Shown here: positions 1,567 to 34,053 of the stretch, in pieces
Layout of the letters: each line of letters starts with the position of its first letter
Position numbering within the stretch: position 1 is the first letter of the stretch
Origin: Bdellovibrio sp. ArHS
GTDB lineage: Bacteria; Bdellovibrionota; Bdellovibrionia; Bdellovibrionales; Bdellovibrionaceae
Direction: 5' to 3'
Length of the DNA stretch: 36,438 nucleotides
Assembly: GCF_000786105.1 (NCBI RefSeq)
Contig: NZ_JTEV01000036.1
Location: forward strand, 1-36,438
Made by a program: the position numbers and the translations under genes
The notes under the pieces: generated by a model
The model's input: only the letters and a program-made list of their open reading frames with translations
The model's database searches: none
What the model was told of the DNA's origin: nothing

Positions 1567-1776
1567 CTAGAATATTTTGTTCGCTAGATATAATGGCAAC
1601 AAAATATACAGGGTCACATCACGAATTAAGTAGTACGCAAAAAAAACCGCGAAGAATTTCCAACCATAACGTTTAATAACGCCCTTGAGGCCTGTGTCTC
1701 GAAAAACTTGCTTGGCTTCGCGGACCACTTGCGGAGTGATGCGATCGAGCAGTTTGATTTTTTTTGAATTCGCCAT
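1567..1776 (-). CDS. Small hypothetical membrane protein
   Basis: This 69-residue reading frame on the minus strand has a lysine- and arginine-rich first half and one long hydrophobic stretch (about residues 42-65, with FFAVFFAYYLIRD and ILLPLYLANK). It is therefore probably a single-pass or hairpin inner-membrane protein. Ribosome binding is not obvious: an AAGGGG lies about eleven bases before the ATG. It converges on the DUF1634 gene with only 20 bases between stops. I do not recognise a family. The clean composition and amphipathic N-terminus make it more likely real than chance. Confidence 0.55.
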   Translation of the reverse strand: MANSKKIKLLDRITPQVVREAKQVFRDTGLKGVIKRYGWKFFAVFFAYYLIRDVTLYILLPLYLANKIF

Positions 1777-1959
1777 ATACAGAAGGCCCCTTAACTGAAG
1801 TCACCTTTCCTTTACAAGGGCTTAGTTCAAGGGGTCAAGTAAAAGGGCAGGACCGCAAAAGAGGGGCTTCGCGGGAGCCTGCTTCTGCTTTTATTTCATT
1901 CTCTATGGTGCGTTTTGTCAATACTAGTAGGTCCTCGGGCGTGGCTCTAGAATTTAAAT

Positions 1960-2445
1960 ATGAATATGAAAAATTTAAAACTGACTGCTTTCGTTAATTT
2001 GTACGGGCTTTTAAAAATTCCTTTGGTTTTATTTGTCAATCCACGTGTGGTGGAATCGACAGAGAAACGCTTTGTTTTGAAAATCCCATTGAATTATCGT
2101 ACCAAAAATCATTTGAACTCTATGTATTTCGGAGCTTTGGGGATTGGTGCTGAACTTTCCATTGCTGCGGCCGCCGTTGTGGCGATTTCCGAAAGTAAGC
2201 AAAAAATTGATTTTATTTTTAAAGATTTTTCGGGTCAGTACATCAAACGCGCTGACGGAGATGTGCATTTTATTTGCGACGAAATCGAAGCTGTGCGCAG
2301 TTTGATTGAAGAGGCCAAGACCAATCCCGCGCGCCTAGAAAGAAAGATGAAGGGTTATGCGGTGGTTCCTAAAACCAACCCGACAGAACCCGTGATGACT
2401 TATGAGCTGACGTTGTCTGTGCGCAATCGATCACTCAAGTCCTAA
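1960..2445 (+). CDS. DUF4442 family hotdog-fold protein (putative thioesterase)
   Basis: This 161-residue protein resembles the DUF4442/PaaI-like hotdog family. The central phrase LNYRTKNHLNSMYFGALGIGAELS matches the family pattern, in which an asparagine-histidine-x-asparagine segment leads into the long hotdog helix. Hotdog proteins of this group are usually acyl-CoA or acyl-ACP thioesterases, but DUF4442 members are largely uncharacterised and the substrate is unknown. Start choice is uncertain: ATG codons occur at 1960 and 1966 with no strong Shine-Dalgarno sequence before either. Its 3' end overlaps the convergent nitronate monooxygenase gene by 15 bases, so each gene's tail is antisense to the other. 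Confidence 0.72.
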   Translation: MNMKNLKLTAFVNLYGLLKIPLVLFVNPRVVESTEKRFVLKIPLNYRTKNHLNSMYFGALGIGAELSIAAAAVVAISESKQKIDFIFKDFSGQYIKRADGDVHFICDEIEAVRSLIEEAKTNPARLERKMKGYAVVPKTNPTEPVMTYELTLSVRNRSLKS

Positions 2446-3429
2446 ACTGGAAAGCTGTTTCACGCTTTGATCATATTCGGTGACGAGTTTGTTATAAATC
2501 TCTTTCACCGAAAGAATATCTTCGACCAAGCCCACGGACTGACCGGCGGTCCATACCGTTTTCCAAGTGGGTTTGCTGGCTGCTTCTTCCAGGGATTTCA
2601 TTCCCATGAGATGAATCAAGGGCACCATGTATTTTTTGGTCAATTTGTGGTCTTTGAGAACTTTCATTGCCCAGGGAAGATCTGTTCCGATTTTTTGCAC
2701 ATAGGGAGTATTAATCACAGCGGCCGGCGTGCCAGAGACTCGCGTGGTCATCACGATATCCTCGGGTGTGGATTTGATAATGGCTTCCTTGTAAGCGGGG
2801 TCTACCTGGGCTTCCTGGCTTGCGATGAAACGAGTGCCGACGCTGACGCCAGATGCTCCCAATGCCAAGCAGGCCGAGATCATCGAACCATGAGAAATTC
2901 CTCCGGCTGCAATAATCGGAATTTGCAGACGAGTTTTAAGCCACGGAATGAGCACCAAAGGGGAAATGGGTCCGGCATGTCCTCCGGCGCCGCTAGAGAC
3001 CGCAATCACGCCATCAGCACCCATATCTTGAACTTTAAGAGCATGTTCTAAATTAGTGACATCACAAAGAACTTTCGCGCCATTTTTGTGCGCCTCTTTA
3101 ATGACTTCCTTGGGGCTTCCTAAAGAGGTGATGAAAAGATCCACGCCATTATCAAGGGCGTACTTCAGATCTTCGGATTGGCGGGTATTGCTTTTATTAA
3201 CGATGATGTTCACGCCAACGGGTTTCTTGGTGCGACTTTTGATGTCTTTGAGTGCTTCGACATACTTTTCGATAGGTCGATAATTCAAAGCCGGGAAGGT
3301 GCCAATGCCACCACTTTCGCTGGCTTCCACGACAAGGTCGGTGTTGCTGACTAAGAACATAGGGGCGGCGATGATGGGATAATCAATGTTCATCATCTCG
3401 GTGAAAGGCGTCTTGATTTTTTTAAGCAT
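2431..3429 (-). CDS. Nitronate monooxygenase (2-nitropropane dioxygenase family)
   Basis: This is a 332-residue FMN-dependent TIM-barrel enzyme. Family members oxidise alkyl nitronates such as propionate-3-nitronate, detoxifying them. Visible family marks are YPIIAAPM near the N-terminus, the GGHAGP segment with the likely catalytic histidine at about residue 151, and the phosphate-binding stretch IIAAGGISHG followed by ALGASGVSVGTRFIAS. An in-frame start exists upstream at 3483, but I chose the ATG at 3429 because a perfect AGGAGGG sits seven bases before it and the enzyme family begins at this point. That Shine-Dalgarno lies inside a strong hairpin (see separate entry). The gene follows a TetR regulator on the same strand, which probably controls it. 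Members can also be enoyl-ACP reductase II-like, so the substrate is inferred. Confidence 0.87.
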   Translation of the reverse strand: MLKKIKTPFTEMMNIDYPIIAAPMFLVSNTDLVVEASESGGIGTFPALNYRPIEKYVEALKDIKSRTKKPVGVNIIVNKSNTRQSEDLKYALDNGVDLFITSLGSPKEVIKEAHKNGAKVLCDVTNLEHALKVQDMGADGVIAVSSGAGGHAGPISPLVLIPWLKTRLQIPIIAAGGISHGSMISACLALGASGVSVGTRFIASQEAQVDPAYKEAIIKSTPEDIVMTTRVSGTPAAVINTPYVQKIGTDLPWAMKVLKDHKLTKKYMVPLIHLMGMKSLEEAASKPTWKTVWTAGQSVGLVEDILSVKEIYNKLVTEYDQSVKQLSSLGLE

Positions 3430-3474
3430 AAAAAAACCCTCCTGAAGTCCTTTTAAGGATACGAGGAGGGTTTT
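3430..3474 (-). promoter_or_regulatory. Terminator-like hairpin that contains the nmo ribosome binding site
   Basis: The plus-strand arms 3433-3443 and 3464-3474 are perfect 11-base complements (AAAACCCTCCT / AGGAGGGTTTT). An inner stem TCCTT/AAGGA lies at 3448-3459. Read on the minus strand, the second arm is AGGAGGG followed by seven Ts and the ATG of the nitronate monooxygenase. The element has the shape of an intrinsic terminator, yet its 3' arm is also the gene's Shine-Dalgarno sequence. If folded, it would stop transcription coming from tetR or hide the ribosome site. The structure is seen directly; the regulatory role is inferred. Confidence 0.7.
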
Positions 3475-3490
3475 AAGACGCAAGGGAATT

Positions 3491-3509
3491 CTTAAGACCG
3501 GGTCTTAAG
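3491..3509. promoter_or_regulatory. Perfect 19-base palindrome over the tetR stop codon
   Basis: CTTAAGACC-G-GGTCTTAAG reads the same on both strands, with nine-base arms and a single central base. It covers the TAA stop of the TetR gene and lies about 60 bases upstream of the nitronate monooxygenase start. It could be an operator for the TetR protein or a short hairpin in the tetR-nmo transcript. No T-tract follows, so it is not a classical terminator. Confidence 0.5.
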
Positions 3510-4131
3510 GATTCAAGTAGCGACGGATCAACAGGAAGACTTCCTTCTTGATCGCATCTTCACGTTCTTGCGACTGAGGGCCTAATAAAGCCAGGTGCAA
3601 AATGTTATTAAAGCAACTGACGATAAATAGCGCCATCATTTCGCGATCGCGACCTGGGATTGGTGGCATATGCGCCAAGACCGCTTTTTGATAGTGTTCA
3701 AAGAACACGCGGCGGGTATCCCAATAGTCCAGCATCCCTTGGACGCCTTGCAGGGCGGTTCTTAGGGGACGGTTGTCGTGGAAACGTGTAAAGCCAATAT
3801 CAATAAAGGCATGGACTTTAGAATCCAAGTCTGTCGCTTGAAGTTTTGCCAGATTTTCTTCGATATAGGCGAGGTCTTTTTGCAAAAGATCGTCGATAAC
3901 CGCAGCGACAATGGCTTCCTTGTTGGCGAAGAATTGATAAAGGGATCCGATACTCACTCCGGCCATTTCAGCAATCTTGTCTGTCGTGATTGCATGATAG
4001 GGCTCTTGAACGAGAAGTCGGGCACAAGATTCCACAATGCTCGCGACCGTTTCTTTGGACCGTTTTTGCACCGGAATTTTGAGCATATATTTCTTTTCGG
4101 GATTTGTGTGGCTGATTGGAGCAGCACCCAT
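3505..4131 (-). CDS. TetR/AcrR family transcriptional regulator
   Basis: This is a 208-residue one-component repressor. The N-terminal helix-turn-helix spans about residues 22-75, with the typical TetR wording ITTDKIAEMAGVSIGSLYQFFANKEAI. The rest is an all-helical ligand and dimerisation domain. I chose the ATG at 4131 over an in-frame ATG 42 bases upstream because AAAGGAGGAAG sits directly before it. The nitronate monooxygenase gene lies 75 bases downstream on the same strand, so this regulator probably responds to a compound handled by that enzyme and may also autoregulate. The ligand is unknown. Confidence 0.9.
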   Translation of the reverse strand: MGAAPISHTNPEKKYMLKIPVQKRSKETVASIVESCARLLVQEPYHAITTDKIAEMAGVSIGSLYQFFANKEAIVAAVIDDLLQKDLAYIEENLAKLQATDLDSKVHAFIDIGFTRFHDNRPLRTALQGVQGMLDYWDTRRVFFEHYQKAVLAHMPPIPGRDREMMALFIVSCFNNILHLALLGPQSQEREDAIKKEVFLLIRRYLNP

Positions 4132-4198
4132 AACTTCCTCCTTTCGAGGCTTATAAACTTTGCTCGTATTCATATTCGGTCTTTAGGGTTTAATATTC

Positions 4199-4219
4199 AA
4201 TACTAGTACGCAAAGTATT
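4199..4219. promoter_or_regulatory. Candidate operator upstream of tetR
   Basis: AATACT and AGTATT form an inverted repeat with a nine-base spacer, about 70 bases before the TetR start. TetR proteins often bind such repeats in their own promoter region. The arms are short and the region is AT-rich, so this is only a candidate. Confidence 0.25.
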
Positions 4220-4528
4220 AACATACAGTACCAGAGTGCCGGCGGGGAGTACGATTTGACCGAATCTTAACAAAAATAACGAACGTTAGTCTCATTTTAG
4301 TCTAGAATACTTGAAGTCTAGACAATATTGCCAATTAGCAATCAAGAATTAAATGAAAAATGAATTATTAAACACATTTTTCCTTGGGACGCTAAAAATA
4401 TGTTACTCGGATTTCAGATTATTAATAAATATCAGTATAAAATTCATCGGATTTTATCAGATAACTATGCTGAAAATCGCCTGTATTACGCTTTTTTGGG
4501 GTTTTTAAGCCCAGGTATGAAATGTCGT

Positions 4529-4556
4529 ATAGCGCATTGCGCATGCGCTATTTTTC
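4529..4556 (+). terminator. Intrinsic terminator with no assigned gene upstream
   Basis: ATAGCGCA (4529-4536) pairs with TGCGCTAT (4544-4551), and a run of Ts follows directly. On the other strand no T-tract follows, so it acts on plus-strand transcripts. The only sequence it could terminate starts within the tetR-luxR gap. Confidence 0.6.
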
Positions 4557-4669
4557 TTATCACCTCACATTTTAAAAACCCGTCTTTAGGGGCGAAAATA
4601 AATTTAAATCATGATCTGCGTCATCGATTCTTGGGCCAAAGCGAACGAATATAGTCCTCAGGAGGTCGC

Positions 4670-27890: not shown

Positions 27891-28769
27891 TTAGTGACCA
27901 CTTTGACAGCAACTAGCGCCAGTGGGTCCGCTTCCACCGACTCCACAAGTTCCGACCCATGAGCATCCTTTGGTGTCTATCCATGTATACTGTCCGATCT
28001 GAGAGTAGGCGTAGGTCGTGCATGCTCTAAAAGCGCCAGGGGCTGAACAACCACTACCTGACGAAGAAGATGCGGCAACACAAATTTTCGTACCATCCGC
28101 GTTCACGCCAGCCATCGCTTGACCACTTTCACATTGGCCGAGAATTTTTAATGCGCACTTTCCCGAACTGCTATTCCATGTGCCCTCAAGAGATTCGCAA
28201 AGCTGTTGGGCCATAAGATCATAATCAGCAGAATTAGTTATTGTCGTCGCCGCACAGGATTTAATTGTCGCGACTGAACTATTTTCTTCCACCTTCATCA
28301 TTATCGGCACACGCCGAACCAGTTCACTGGCCCCGAGACTGTTAAGAGCGTTTGCTTTGGAAAAAGGTAAAACAAGTTTACCCAAATAAAGGTTTGTCCC
28401 TAAACTCTTAATCTCCATCACCTTGATTGATTTTAGATTCAGTGAGTTCGTGGTAACTCCTGATCGAATGATGACCTCACTCGAATCAGAATTGATGATT
28501 CGATCGGGAATTTTTGGTGCTATCGAAGCCGTTGTTAGATCTTTGGGATTAAAAGTCTGACCGACGAAATTTATATTGCATGTACTGGCCGAACTCAATG
28601 ACATGCGCACCAGTTCACTTTGAATATTTGACTCGTTCACCGCCGAGTAATTGTTTTGAAACTTTGAAAAGATGTCGGTGATACTTAGTAAAGCCATAGT
28701 GATAATACCCATGATGCCCAGCCCTACCAAGACCTCGACCAGCCCAACGCCTCTATTATTTAAGTTCAT
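27891..28769 (-). CDS. Prepilin-like protein with cysteine-rich C-terminal half
   Basis: This 292-residue protein starts with a type IV prepilin signal: a short charged leader, then G7 followed by VGLVEVLVGLGIMGI, with the conserved glutamate at position 5 of the mature form. Prepilin peptidase would cut after G7. The middle part is a typical pseudopilin-like soluble domain. The last third is rich in cysteine and serine and contains a CESGQAMAGVNADGTKIC segment, a wording also common in phage-like tail fibres, and ends GASCCQSGH. I chose the ATG at 28769 because the prepilin leader requires it; the ribosome site GGGAAAA is weak. It is divergent from the fibre gene block and may be a surface-displayed minor pilin. 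Confidence 0.8.
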   Translation of the reverse strand: MNLNNRGVGLVEVLVGLGIMGIITMALLSITDIFSKFQNNYSAVNESNIQSELVRMSLSSASTCNINFVGQTFNPKDLTTASIAPKIPDRIINSDSSEVIIRSGVTTNSLNLKSIKVMEIKSLGTNLYLGKLVLPFSKANALNSLGASELVRRVPIMMKVEENSSVATIKSCAATTITNSADYDLMAQQLCESLEGTWNSSSGKCALKILGQCESGQAMAGVNADGTKICVAASSSSGSGCSAPGAFRACTTYAYSQIGQYTWIDTKGCSWVGTCGVGGSGPTGASCCQSGH

Positions 28770-29187
28770 GGATTTTTCCCGTCTGCAGAAACTCACTTCG
28801 CATCTCACTCATGACACTGTGAATGAGTCGGTGATCTTAAGTAGAGTATGCCACTGTTTGGAGTTTTAATGCTGTGCTAATGTTTATTTCTAGGTCTATA
28901 CAGTGCTGAATGTTGTCAGCAAATATAAGCCCCTGGCTCATTATGAGCGTTGCAGAATGAGTCCCTCTAAATCTTGGGTTGAAAGACGAAGGAGAAAAGC
29001 GCAAATATTTGTTGTTTCCTGAGTGAACGTTTGCAAGCGATACAAGCGAGTCTTTCTCTGGCGTCGATGCTCAATAAGAGGTTTTTTGACCCAAAGTTGA
29101 AGAAAAGTTAAGGCCTCAGACTAGAAGCTGAAAAGATCAGGAAAATGAGATATAGAGCTTCTGTTTTTCGACGAAAGGAATTTATTT
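28770..29187. other. Intergenic region between the pseudopilin and secreted protein genes
   Basis: About 420 bases hold the promoters of two divergent genes. A 13-base inverted repeat GCTCA-TTA-TGAGC lies at 28936-28948 and may be an operator. A sigma-28-like promoter is seen at 29108-29134. No small open frame with a ribosome site was found. Confidence 0.45.
29108..29134 (+). promoter_or_regulatory. Sigma-28 (FliA)-like promoter candidate for the small secreted gene
   Basis: TTAA (29108-29111) and GCTGAAAA (29127-29134) are 15 bases apart, the spacing of sigma-28 promoters (TAAA-N15-GCCGATAA). The -10 matches six of eight positions. The gene starts 54 bases later. Confidence 0.4.
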
Positions 29188-29472
29188 ATGATGAAACAAA
29201 AGTTTTCCAAAATATTCGCGAGCATTTCATTTTTTGCTCTTTTAGGTCTTTCAGTTACGACTTCTGCACAAACGTTGGCGGCGACTCCAGAATTCTGCGA
29301 AGCGATTAAGCCGACGAGCTCTGTTTACTTCAATGCCAGCAGCTACATCGGTCCTGACGTTGTTCAACTATGCCAAAAGAGTCTGCAAGGCCAAGAAGTT
29401 CAAAACTGCCTACGCGAAGCCTTCGAGTGGAAAAACTGGGCGCGCCTTTGCAAGATGCCGATGCCGCAGTAA
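29188..29472 (+). CDS. Small secreted protein with four cysteines
   Basis: This 94-residue protein has a signal peptide (basic start, then ASISFFALLGLSVTTSAQ, with cleavage probably after the SAQ or TLA region). The mature part is about 60 residues with four cysteines (37, 62, 74, 88), enough for two disulfides, and ends MPMPQ. I recognise no family. The start at 29188 follows AAAGGAA by seven bases; a second ATG directly after is possible. It is followed by a strong terminator, so it is its own transcript, and it lies 260 bases before the giant fibre gene. A link to the fibre is inferred only from position and the similar promoter type. Confidence 0.75.
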   Translation: MMKQKFSKIFASISFFALLGLSVTTSAQTLAATPEFCEAIKPTSSVYFNASSYIGPDVVQLCQKSLQGQEVQNCLREAFEWKNWARLCKMPMPQ

Positions 29473-29732: not shown

Positions 29733-32700
29733 ATGGTTCAGCAATGTAGAGATCTTTCATTGAATATTCTTCGGCATATCATTTTGATTCTTGTTGCATC
29801 TTTTGTTGTGCTGGCTGCCCAGGCTCAAACTCATAAAGGTATTTCATTTCAAGGGGTCATTAAACTTCCGGATGGAGAATACCCAAATAAATCGGGCCTC
29901 ACCGTAGATGCTTATATTCTGTCACCTAATAACTGTATTCTTCGTCAGGAGCAGTTCAGTGGTGTGAGTATCGTGAATGGCTATATTAACTTAGTCGTTG
30001 GGACGGGGCTTGTCGGGGGGGATGATCCGGGTTTAAGCCTTAAGAAGGTCATGGATAACTCAGCGGTGATTGCTAATGGGCCGACTCAACCGGCTGGACT
30101 GATTTGCTTGAATCCTGACGGTTCTATCAATGGCGCCGTCACCAGCTTTAACCCGGCCTCAGGCAATGGAGCGAGAAAATTCAGGTTGAGTCTTTCTATC
30201 GATGCCTTGCCTGTTGTGGCTGACTTCAATATGCGATCTGTGGCTTACGCACTCAATGCTGAAACTTTAAATGGTCGAACCGAAGATAGTTTTGTCAAAA
30301 CCAGTACAAACATCACGCAAATCGGCGTCGAAGCCTGGTTTGCAAGTACCGTCATCGGCGAATTGCTGGCAAACACCTACAACGCGCCAACGGCGACAAC
30401 GATCACCGGCACGATTGCATCCAATAAGGTGACTGGTCTCGCGACGGTAGCAACCAGCGGCAGCTATAATGATCTTAGCAATAAGCCTTCTATTCCCAAT
30501 ATCCCAAGTCAGACTGGCCACGCTGGAAAATATCTGACGACCGACGGAAGTATTTTGTCTTGGTCGACAGTCACGAGTGGTGGCTCTGGCACTATCACGG
30601 AAGTTGTTGCGGGAACAGGATTAAGTGGTGGCGGTACTTCTGGCGCGGTCACAGTGAATTTGGCAAATGTCGGGACCTCTGGCACCTATACAAAAGTGAC
30701 GACGGACGCGCAGGGCAGAGTGACGGCAGGAACGACACTGAGTGCCGCCGATATTCCTGCATTGGATGCGGCGAAGATTACCAGTGGAACTTTTGCCGAC
30801 AGTCTTCTTGCGGGATTGTCTATCGATAAGCTGCTTAATGGCGCTGGGAAATATTTGAATTACAAACCAAACAACGTGGCTTGTGGTAATAATGAAGTGT
30901 TGAAATACGACACCTCTTTGAACTCCGGTGGCGGAGGTTGGAAGTGTGCAGTGGACGACAATAGTGGTGTCGGATCAGAGAGCGATCCGACGGTGCAGGC
31001 TTTCGCGAAAAATGCGCCGGGTTCGGGTCTTATAGTGAATGGCTCCAATCAATTGGTTATTGATGCGGGATCGACTGCGAATAAAGTGGTCAAACTGGAT
31101 GGCTCAGCCCGCTTGCCAGCAGTAGATGGATCCCAGTTGACCGGCTTGCCTACGCCGTCAAGTTTTTCGGGTTCTCTTTCTGGTGATGTCAGTGGTGGAC
31201 AAGGTAGTACCAAGGTTGACAAAATTAACGGTGTTTCTGTCGCTGCGGCAGTCGCAGCGGATGACGGAAAATATTTGAAGTATGTTCATGGCTCGACGGC
31301 GTGGCAGGCACAGTATATTAAATTATCGGATCTAAAAAACGTGACGGGCACGGCGTCTGCGTTTCATACAAACATTGGAAGCTGTACCGCAGGTCAAACC
31401 ATGGTGTGGTCGTCAATCACTGACCAATTCAATTGCCAAGACGTTTCAATTACGAAGTCGCAAATCAGTGACTTTCCAACTTTGGGCTCATTGGCAGGCA
31501 AAAGCACCATAGGAACAAGTGACATCAGTGACGGCGCCGTCACGGCAGCGAAACTTGGTACGGATGTGGGTGCTTGGACCACCGACGGAACAGACATTTG
31601 GCGAAATACTGGCAATGTCGGTATTGGTGTGAGTTCGCCTTTATCAAAACTGCATATTGAGTCGGCTTCCGCTCCAGTACTCACTTTGGGTAACTCTTCT
31701 CTGGTGAGTGAGGGTAGTCCGATCGGCGTACTTAAATTTGCAAACCATGCGGCAAATTGGAACTACTGGGCCGGGATTAGAGCTGTTCGTGGTGCTGCCG
31801 AAAATAATATTGGTCTGTACTTTGATGTTCAAAAGGGTGGTGCCGCCGGAGCCGCCCTCGGTCTTAATGCCCTAGCGATTGATTCAAATGGTAATGTCGG
31901 TATCGGGACCGCAAATCCAGTTGCTACGTTGGAAGTCTCTGCGCCAATGAATACTGATGCTTTCAAAATTAATTCGGCCTTTACAGTCAGGCCCTTTGAT
32001 AGCGGAATTTCAGGACTACCGGGTAGTCAGTTCGGAACGCTCGTTACGGGCTCCCCAAGTGGGCACTTTGTTTTTGATTTGGCTGCAAATAATTCAACAG
32101 ACGGATTTTATATTCGAGTACCCAGTGTGCTTACTACACCGCCATCTGCTGTTGATACGGTGGCTTTTTCAGTTACGGGAAATGGCAATGTCGGTATTGG
32201 AACGACCTCACCCTCAAGACCACTCCACGTGAAAGCTGATCAACCATGGGGGCAAGTATTTATCGAAAGCCCAGCCCCCGCCTCAAGCCCATCTTTCAAA
32301 GAGGCCAGTATTGGGTTCAATGCTTACGGAACAGGTATCGGTGGTAATGGAATGTGGAATATCGGAGCTGGAATTCCCCAAGGCTCAATAAATCCAGAGG
32401 ATTTAGGCTTTTACCATGTCGATACCTCTGGGACAGGGATCACCCCGCTTGTCATTAAAAACTCTGGCAATGTCGGAATAGGGACGGTCTCCCCTACGTC
32501 ACATTTTCATGTTTCGAGCTCTCCAACAGCCATTTCAGCCTCTGGTGAAACGATGGCCTCGGTCGATGCGACTCCCACACTTTCTTCGAACGCCCAGGCC
32601 TGGATGAAAAATCTCAATGTGGGCACATTAGTGGCGAACAGCGAAACTCATAACTATGGTCCGATCTACAATTTGTTTAATTCCTTGGCCTATCAAGGCT

Positions 32701-33761
32701 CTGGAACTTACCAAACCCTAATGGGGGTCCACTCAATAGTTAAACAATCATCCAGTGCCACGACCGCGACAGGAAGTGGGATCACGGGAGTTTCAGGTTC
32801 CGCCACGCTGGCTTCAAACTCCGATACTGTCGTCTTATGGGGCGGGAGTTTCCTTGGAGTAGTGAGCGAGTCAAAAACAGGTGTACCGACAAATGGTTTT
32901 GGTGGGATTAAGGCAGAAGCCCATCACTACAACTCAAGTACAATCTCAGGGGGTGTAGGAGCTAATGCATCCGCGCAAAACGATGGCGCGGGGGTCCTCA
33001 CACGAGCCTCGGGGGTTTCAGCATCTTCACTTAACAACTCAAGCGGGTCCATCGAAACAGCGTATGGCGTATCTTCCAATGTTACCAATAATGGGGCAGG
33101 CGATATTACAACTGCCTACGGCCTCTCAACGGAGGTCAGAGATTACGGAGCCGGTTCTATCGGTACTGGTTATGGCCTTTTTATTGGTCCGATCTCGGCT
33201 TCAACAAAATATTCGATTTACGTAAGTGATTCAACGGCGCCCTCTTATTTTGCAGGTAAGGTTGGGATTGGTACGGCAAGTCCGAATTATCAGTTAGAGC
33301 TATCCACGGACTCGGCGGCTAAGCCTGGAACGAGCACTTGGACAATCGCGTCTGATGAAAGACTCAAGGATATTCGAGCTCCTTTCAATCGGGGAGTTGC
33401 GTCGCTTCTTGGTCTGAATACAATTTATTTTAGGTATAAAAAGGACAATCCCTTGGGACTGCCTTCGGATAAAGAGTACGTGGGGATTCGTGCCCAGGAT
33501 GTGCAGAAAGTGATCCCGGAAGCTGTCGCTCAGGATAAGGACGGTTATTTGCATGTCACCAACGACGCTGTCATTTGGACCGTTGTGAATTCCGTCAAAG
33601 AGCTTTATTTTAAAATTCTAAAACAGGATGAACAATTGGCTTCAAAAGTCGGACAAGCAGAGTTCGACGCACTTAAGGCCGAAAATGAAATTCTGAAGAA
33701 AGAAAATGTCGAGATAAAAAAACGCTTAGAGAGAATTGAGAGGGCTCTTGAAAGCAAGTAG
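29733..33761 (+). CDS. Giant trimeric fibre protein with S74 chaperone domain (Mosaic Adhesive Trimer type)
   Basis: This 1342-residue exported protein has a signal peptide (about 1-32, ending AAQAQ) and an N-terminal domain with GISFQGVIKLPDG and NCILRQEQFSG, like the conserved head of Bdellovibrio fibre proteins. Phage-tail-fibre repeats follow (YNDLSNKPSIP, TTDAQGRVTAGTTLSAADIP). Five GNVGIG-type repeats start near residues 627, 720, 818, 912 and 1175, and eight 18-residue repeats lie at 1013-1156. The C-terminus is an S74 intramolecular chaperone starting at the S1207-D1208 pair (SDERLKD), where related proteins cut themselves, then a coiled coil. Fibres of this type are known to recognise prey or host surfaces in Bdellovibrio. 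The ATG follows GGGGAG. The stop overlaps the lipoprotein gene frame. Confidence 0.9.
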   Translation: MVQQCRDLSLNILRHIILILVASFVVLAAQAQTHKGISFQGVIKLPDGEYPNKSGLTVDAYILSPNNCILRQEQFSGVSIVNGYINLVVGTGLVGGDDPGLSLKKVMDNSAVIANGPTQPAGLICLNPDGSINGAVTSFNPASGNGARKFRLSLSIDALPVVADFNMRSVAYALNAETLNGRTEDSFVKTSTNITQIGVEAWFASTVIGELLANTYNAPTATTITGTIASNKVTGLATVATSGSYNDLSNKPSIPNIPSQTGHAGKYLTTDGSILSWSTVTSGGSGTITEVVAGTGLSGGGTSGAVTVNLANVGTSGTYTKVTTDAQGRVTAGTTLSAADIPALDAAKITSGTFADSLLAGLSIDKLLNGAGKYLNYKPNNVACGNNEVLKYDTSLNSGGGGWKCAVDDNSGVGSESDPTVQAFAKNAPGSGLIVNGSNQLVIDAGSTANKVVKLDGSARLPAVDGSQLTGLPTPSSFSGSLSGDVSGGQGSTKVDKINGVSVAAAVAADDGKYLKYVHGSTAWQAQYIKLSDLKNVTGTASAFHTNIGSCTAGQTMVWSSITDQFNCQDVSITKSQISDFPTLGSLAGKSTIGTSDISDGAVTAAKLGTDVGAWTTDGTDIWRNTGNVGIGVSSPLSKLHIESASAPVLTLGNSSLVSEGSPIGVLKFANHAANWNYWAGIRAVRGAAENNIGLYFDVQKGGAAGAALGLNALAIDSNGNVGIGTANPVATLEVSAPMNTDAFKINSAFTVRPFDSGISGLPGSQFGTLVTGSPSGHFVFDLAANNSTDGFYIRVPSVLTTPPSAVDTVAFSVTGNGNVGIGTTSPSRPLHVKADQPWGQVFIESPAPASSPSFKEASIGFNAYGTGIGGNGMWNIGAGIPQGSINPEDLGFYHVDTSGTGITPLVIKNSGNVGIGTVSPTSHFHVSSSPTAISASGETMASVDATPTLSSNAQAWMKNLNVGTLVANSETHNYGPIYNLFNSLAYQGSGTYQTLMGVHSIVKQSSSATTATGSGITGVSGSATLASNSDTVVLWGGSFLGVVSESKTGVPTNGFGGIKAEAHHYNSSTISGGVGANASAQNDGAGVLTRASGVSASSLNNSSGSIETAYGVSSNVTNNGAGDITTAYGLSTEVRDYGAGSIGTGYGLFIGPISASTKYSIYVSDSTAPSYFAGKVGIGTASPNYQLELSTDSAAKPGTSTWTIASDERLKDIRAPFNRGVASLLGLNTIYFRYKKDNPLGLPSDKEYVGIRAQDVQKVIPEAVAQDKDGYLHVTNDAVIWTVVNSVKELYFKILKQDEQLASKVGQAEFDALKAENEILKKENVEIKKRLERIERALESK
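32769..33200 (+). repeat. Eight diverged 54-base (18-residue) repeats in the fibre gene
   Basis: In the fibre frame, residues 1013-1156 align as eight units of exactly 18 residues with no gaps. Position 5 is hydrophobic in most units (Ile or Leu), position 10 is almost always Gly, and the best-conserved units read GAGxITxAYG. The DNA has diverged, so the repeat is clearest in protein. It fits a triple-stranded beta-helix or beta-prism shaft. Confidence 0.7.
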
Positions 33762-34053
33762 TTCTAGGGCCATTTTTAAACGAACGATAAACCTGGTGAA
33801 AGCTCGATTTGCCGCCCTTGTGCTTAGTGGGCTGGCTGTCTTCTTAAGTGCATGCTCTATGGATGTGAGTCTTACGCGTCCCACAACACTTGCGAATCCC
33901 GAGTTGTCTTCGCAAGATAGCGGTCCTGATTTTATGTCGGCAGAGGTTGTGGAAACGGTAAATGGAGTTGTTGTTCGAGGGGCTTTTGGCGAGATATCTG
34001 AGCGTCAAGTTCTTTCCAATGGAGTCACTATCCAAGGCCGTTTTTATGAATGA
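33736..34053 (+). CDS. Small lipoprotein downstream of the fibre gene
   Basis: This frame encodes a lipoprotein: a hydrophobic signal (FAALVLSGLAVFLSAC) ends in the lipobox LSAC, with lipid-modified C40 if counted from the TTG at 33736. About 65 residues follow, ending in a repeated beta-like pattern (TVNGVVVRGAFGE and SNGVTIQGRFYE). The start is uncertain: TTG at 33736 or 33748 would overlap the fibre stop (33761), while GTG at 33796 would not, and none has a strong ribosome site. The overlap with the fibre suggests shared transcription. A role in anchoring or assembling the fibre at the outer membrane is inferred from position only. Confidence 0.68.
   Translation: MRGLLKASSSRAIFKRTINLVKARFAALVLSGLAVFLSACSMDVSLTRPTTLANPELSSQDSGPDFMSAEVVETVNGVVVRGAFGEISERQVLSNGVTIQGRFYE

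Follow-up and report, generated by a model that had tools for sequence, protein, structure and literature searches.

The closest described relatives of the fiber studied here are the mosaic adhesive trimers (MATs) of Bdellovibrio bacteriovorus HD100 (Caulton et al. 2024, PMC10769870). MATs are displayed on the surface, and one of them binds prey glycans; the MAT N-domain presumably binds an element of the predator surface that is still awaiting identification (PMC10769870). The family's capping loops follow the consensus V-G-G/N-pi-X-X-P-X-X-X-L, and its S74 domains carry an SDxxxK motif (PMC10769870). Most single MAT deletions in HD100 cause little or no predation defect (PMC10769870), which we attribute to the redundancy of MATs. 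A bd2734 deletion strain preyed on E. coli more slowly (PMC10769870), and Bd2872 was listed as required for predation in a transposon screen (PMC6561027). We analyzed a stretch of 36,438 nucleotides from Bdellovibrio sp. ArHS (hereafter, the window), in which a MAT gene is paired with a small lipoprotein gene. With a probability of roughly 0.6, we read this locus as a two-gene unit consisting of a MAT fiber and a cognate lipoprotein that would hold the fiber's N-domain at the predator surface.

The fiber encoded in the window has the complete MAT domain order (see the table). Behind the putative signal peptide, which was recognized by eye, the MAT_N domain follows directly; it matched NF053851 with 101 bits (E 5.8e-29; NCBIfam cut-off, 60 bits) and the subclass profile A2 with 274 bits, and its MAT_N score is the lowest among the 19 MATs of the genome. 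The stalk is matched by PHROG tail-fiber families at residues 290-363 and 649-837. The motif VGIGxxxPxxxx occurs five times (residues 629, 722, 820, 914, and 1177), in agreement with the capping-loop consensus of the MAT beta-helix. At the C-terminal end, Pfam Peptidase_S74 matched residues 1207-1265 with 32.8 bits (gathering score, 22 bits), and the motif SDERLK at residues 1207-1212 is intact and agrees with SDxxxK; self-cleavage is predicted to occur before Ser1207. These are precisely the features described for MATs (PMC10769870), and the window fiber is confirmed as an additional member of this published family. The initial annotation, which had proposed a signal peptide, a Bdellovibrio-type head domain, phage-fiber repeats, a beta-repeat shaft, and a self-cleaving S74 chaperone in one chain, had both the family and the architecture right. 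A search of PDB sequences with the fiber gave no match, and an AlphaFold model of residues 905-1342 (monomer, single sequence) reached a pLDDT of 36, with the C-terminal coiled coil as its sole confident part. Upstream of the MAT gene, we also observed a 94-aa small secreted protein without family assignment (29188-29472, + strand) and a gene at 27891-28808 (- strand) with a prepilin-type N-methylation motif (PF07963, 20.7 bits, just below the cut-off of 21.2).

Table. Features of the MAT-lipoprotein locus; coordinates refer to the window and residues to the fiber.
Feature	Coordinates	Strand	Basis and remarks
MAT fiber gene, S74-terminated	29733..33761	+	ATG start, 1342 aa; Pfam, NCBIfam, and PHROG matches
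Predicted Sec signal peptide, residues 1-31, ...LAAQA/Q	29733..29825	+	By eye on the translation
Bdello_MAT_N domain, residues 24-191, subclass 'B' (KGISFQGVIKLPDG...)	29802..30305	+	NCBIfam NF053851
Beta-helix segments with capping loops 1-4 (residues 629, 722, 820, 914)	31617..32507	+	Motif scan; consensus from PMC10769870
Spacer between capping loops 4 and 5, residues 926-1176	32508..33260	+	Distal part common to other MATs, 18-residue repeats
Peptidase_S74 domain; predicted self-cleavage before Ser1207	33351..33527	+	Pfam match, SDERLK motif
C-terminal coiled-coil helix, residues 1308-1341	33654..33755	+	AlphaFold model; weak HALZ match
Putative MAT-associated lipoprotein, type I	33748..34053	+	Start TTG 33748 or GTG 33796; lipobox LSAC; mature from Cys at 33853, 66 aa

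Residues 912-1175 had been flagged as the longest non-standard insert, a description that for the most part does not hold. This stretch corresponds to the spacer that separates capping loop 4 from capping loop 5, and residues ~1058-1190 have relatives in other MATs (about 35-41% identity among the loci compared), so the distal spacer is not a special insert. Its distal half holds an 18-residue TAYG repeat (TAYGVSS.., TAYGLST.., TGYGLFI..). Residues ~926-1057 had no good relatives among the loci compared; they are the best candidate for fiber-specific binding.

The window fiber is one of many. We found 19 MAT genes in the ArHS genome, and all of the genus genomes searched (24/24) hold MATs. The family's tips are most likely exchanged: a MAT encoded on contig 11 shares 71% identity with the window MAT over residues 17-480 and then continues into a different, non-S74 tip, and a MAT of the metagenome-assembled genome Oligoflexia bacterium BroJett040 has the N-domain class of the window MAT and an FGE-sulfatase-like tip. 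The latter tip (locus L035, MAT gene at 1668-4634) differs in type from the six tips that the 2024 paper solved for HD100. Contact with prey, the function first suggested for the window gene, is best supported as the general role of MATs, given their exposure on the predator surface and the binding of prey glycans by one of them (PMC10769870); for this particular fiber, one of about 19, we infer that it is most likely used to touch prey. The further suggestion that it may set a new host specificity is speculative.

Just outside the coordinates covered by the initial annotation, a second open reading frame overlaps the stop of the MAT gene and encodes a putative small lipoprotein. Its relatives (n = 59) have short mature chains of 64-82 aa and share a conserved C-terminal module of two repeats. 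Serine follows the lipobox cysteine in 55 of the 59, and by the E. coli +2 rule, under which serine at this position means the outer membrane, the protein is likely lipid-attached to that membrane. No Pfam or NCBIfam family covers these proteins. A search of journal literature, mainly open access, found no paper describing the family or a lipoprotein partner of MATs, and the 2024 MAT paper (PMC10769870) makes no mention of such a partner. Judged by these searches, the family is undescribed, and we propose it here as the MAT-associated lipoprotein family. Among PDB sequences, the lipoproteins had only weak matches at the lipobox; an AlphaFold model made with two sequences (pLDDT 48, five short strands) was too poor for claims about the fold.

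Homologs of the lipoprotein were found by sequence alone, after which a profile (A1) was built from relatives within the genus. Of 119 order genomes, 28 were matched by this profile, and these belong to a single taxonomic family; outside that family, there are MATs for which no lipoprotein could be detected. Within the genus, MATs and lipoproteins are both present in all 24 genomes. We examined 74 lipoprotein genes. For 58 of them, a same-strand MAT is found within 200 bp; in most cases the lipoprotein gene comes directly before the MAT, and the two often overlap. A rough estimate puts the chance expectation for such adjacency below 1%. Another 13 have no same-strand MAT nearby, and most of these are type II genes (see below) at conserved loci. 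The BroJett040 genome has an overlapping pair like that of the window, but with the different, FGE-sulfatase-like tip. Three side observations concern sequences at such loci: four tandem LSTQHSA heptads lie in the reading frame just ahead of the BroJett040 lipoprotein signal peptide (L035, 1256-1705); a pseudopilin-like 318-aa ORF lies between MAT and lipoprotein on contig 27 (L152, 5595-6551); and the contig-11 MAT is separated from its lipoprotein by a protein of 856 aa that has a DUF7483 domain (253 bits) and a Tat-like signal (L204, 4145-6715).

The lipoproteins fall into types, named I-IV in this analysis, that go with N-domain classes: type I with class B (that of the window), type II with class A1, type III with the YHGRLLD class, and type IV with Bd2734-like MATs. 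In ArHS, every one of the nine MATs outside class A1 has a lipoprotein nearby. The five class-B MATs are matched by five type-I genes, three of which overlap their MAT; the other two are found on the same strand as the MAT and downstream of it, at distances of 0.9 and 2.6 kb. Both YHGRLLD MATs have a type-III gene directly upstream, one MAT is overlapped upstream by a gene for a 198-aa lipoprotein, and a 604-aa MAT has a divergent gene for a 238-aa lipoprotein. The remaining ten MATs all belong to class A1 and correspond to one type-II gene. Judged by MAT_N scores, 21 genus genomes have class-A1 MATs; 20 of these gave strong type-II matches, as against none of the 3 genomes that lack the class. 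The exception (G017) has class-A1 MATs, no strong type-II lipoprotein, and no candidate beside its arrays. Several type-II genes are orphans at conserved loci distant from MATs, as expected of a shared component. The 198-aa and ~230-aa lipoproteins are placed in the family by their position and by a C-terminal module that looks similar by eye; an HMM of the module gave no significant match to them (E ~1 at best). Lipoproteins of 208-238 aa are divergent from short Bd2872-like MATs at four loci (L197, 4627-5316; L198, 7236-7931; L199, 7104-7730; L236, 3063-3779); these have an extra middle domain and a C-terminal module that is similar by eye.

Lipoprotein and N-domain covary. Across 62 pairs, distances between lipoproteins correlated with distances between MAT N-domains (Spearman 0.81); when partners were permuted within genomes, none of 2000 trials reached this value (mean, 0.09; maximum, 0.43). 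The correlation with the last 170 MAT residues was 0.20, and along the fiber it decayed within a few hundred residues (0.81, 0.45, 0.19, 0.09). The partial correlation with the N-domain given the stalk was 0.76-0.81. Restricting the comparison to S74 fibers (n = 26) gave 0.90 with the N-domain versus 0.21 with the C-terminus. On a two-class split of the N-domains, the closest lipoprotein from another genome accompanied the same N-domain class in 62 of 62 pairs. The window lipoprotein is encoded downstream, beside the S74 tip, yet its ranking of class-B relatives agrees with the one given by the N-domain (rho 0.92). By these distances, the lipoprotein is matched to the fiber base and not to the tip.

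Similar pairs are found in genome G006, which is presumably that of B. bacteriovorus HD100, given ORFs that match Bd3182 (922 aa), Bd2740, and Bd2734 in length. In this genome, the Bd2734-like gene has a type-IV lipoprotein gene at its start, either overlapping or adjoining, and a divergent gene for a lipoprotein of ~229 aa lies beside a 627-aa MAT that fits Bd2872 in length.

The best reading of these sequence patterns is that the lipoprotein acts as a class-specific outer-membrane partner of the MAT base, and probably as its anchor. The fiber would be exported and trimerized with the help of the S74 chaperone, which would then cut itself off before Ser1207 and expose the beta-helical tip. 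The conserved N-domain would remain at the predator surface, held by a lipoprotein that is inserted in the outer membrane through its lipid and, with its C-terminal two-repeat module, fits one class of N-domain. Tips could be swapped freely under this arrangement, while base and lipoprotein would remain matched. The likely outer-membrane lipid, the class-specific covariation with the N-domain only, and the near-fixed genetic pairing all fit the awaited surface element, and the lipoprotein family is a strong candidate for the component that would keep the fibers attached to the predator surface. The more general idea that the small lipoproteins are class-specific sockets, one common to class A1 and private ones for the other classes, has in our judgment an even chance of being correct.

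The main rival to such an anchor is a pilotin- or chaperone-like factor for assembly or export, which would help the fiber across the outer membrane without serving as a lasting anchor. MATs have a signal peptide and no recognized outer-membrane export domain, one type-II gene for up to ten class-A1 MATs would suit a reusable factor, and class-specific covariation with the N-domain would be predicted here too. The 1:1 pairing in the non-A1 classes of ArHS, in contrast, better suits a dedicated partner, and we regard the assembly factor as a real but less probable explanation. Less likely again is that the pairing reflects genetic linkage only, with two genes coexpressed and inherited as a block and products that never touch. 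Most lipoprotein genes lie directly 5′ of the end that encodes the N-domain, and neighboring genes inherited together covary, so linkage can account for part of the covariation. However, downstream lipoproteins, including that of the window, follow the N-domain and not the adjoining tip; the distribution of type-II genes, which include some not linked to any MAT, agrees with that of class-A1 MATs in 23 of the 24 genomes; and the correlation fades within a few hundred residues of the fiber.

That the window ORF is the tail fiber of a prophage or phage remnant and not a predator adhesin is very improbable, and we rejected it. PHROG families and phage S74 domains do match its stalk and C-terminus, but phage similarity is confined to a stalk fragment (~residues 309-374) and the S74 end. 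The MAT N-domain had no match in 50,697 phage records, and the viral contigs searched gave none. The genome, moreover, holds 19 MAT copies, and the gene's neighbor is metG, with no other phage gene seen beside the MAT.

If the socket idea is true, it would explain how prey-recognition fibers are attached. With a defined gene family and pairs in an HD100-like genome, the surface element for the MAT N-domain becomes directly testable. Because redundancy masks the effect of fiber deletions, loss of the single type-II lipoprotein might disable a whole fiber class and so expose its role in prey recognition.

Among known systems, the small outer-membrane lipoproteins LptM and YifL have a lipobox and small size in common with the MAT-associated lipoproteins, with a weak profile match over signal and lipobox only; past the lipobox there is no significant similarity, and the C-terminal two-repeat module is different. 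Phage S74 fibers, such as the T5 L-shaped fiber and the K1F endosialidase, resemble the window fiber in having an S74 intramolecular chaperone preceded by a beta-helix, whereas the MAT carries a predator N-domain and a signal peptide in place of a virion-attachment domain. Closest are the MATs of HD100 (PMC10769870; NF053851), which have the same signal peptide, MAT_N domain, capping-loop beta-helix, and SDxxxK S74 terminus (as in Bd3182); compared with these, the window fiber has a divergent N-domain subclass and a tip sequence of its own.
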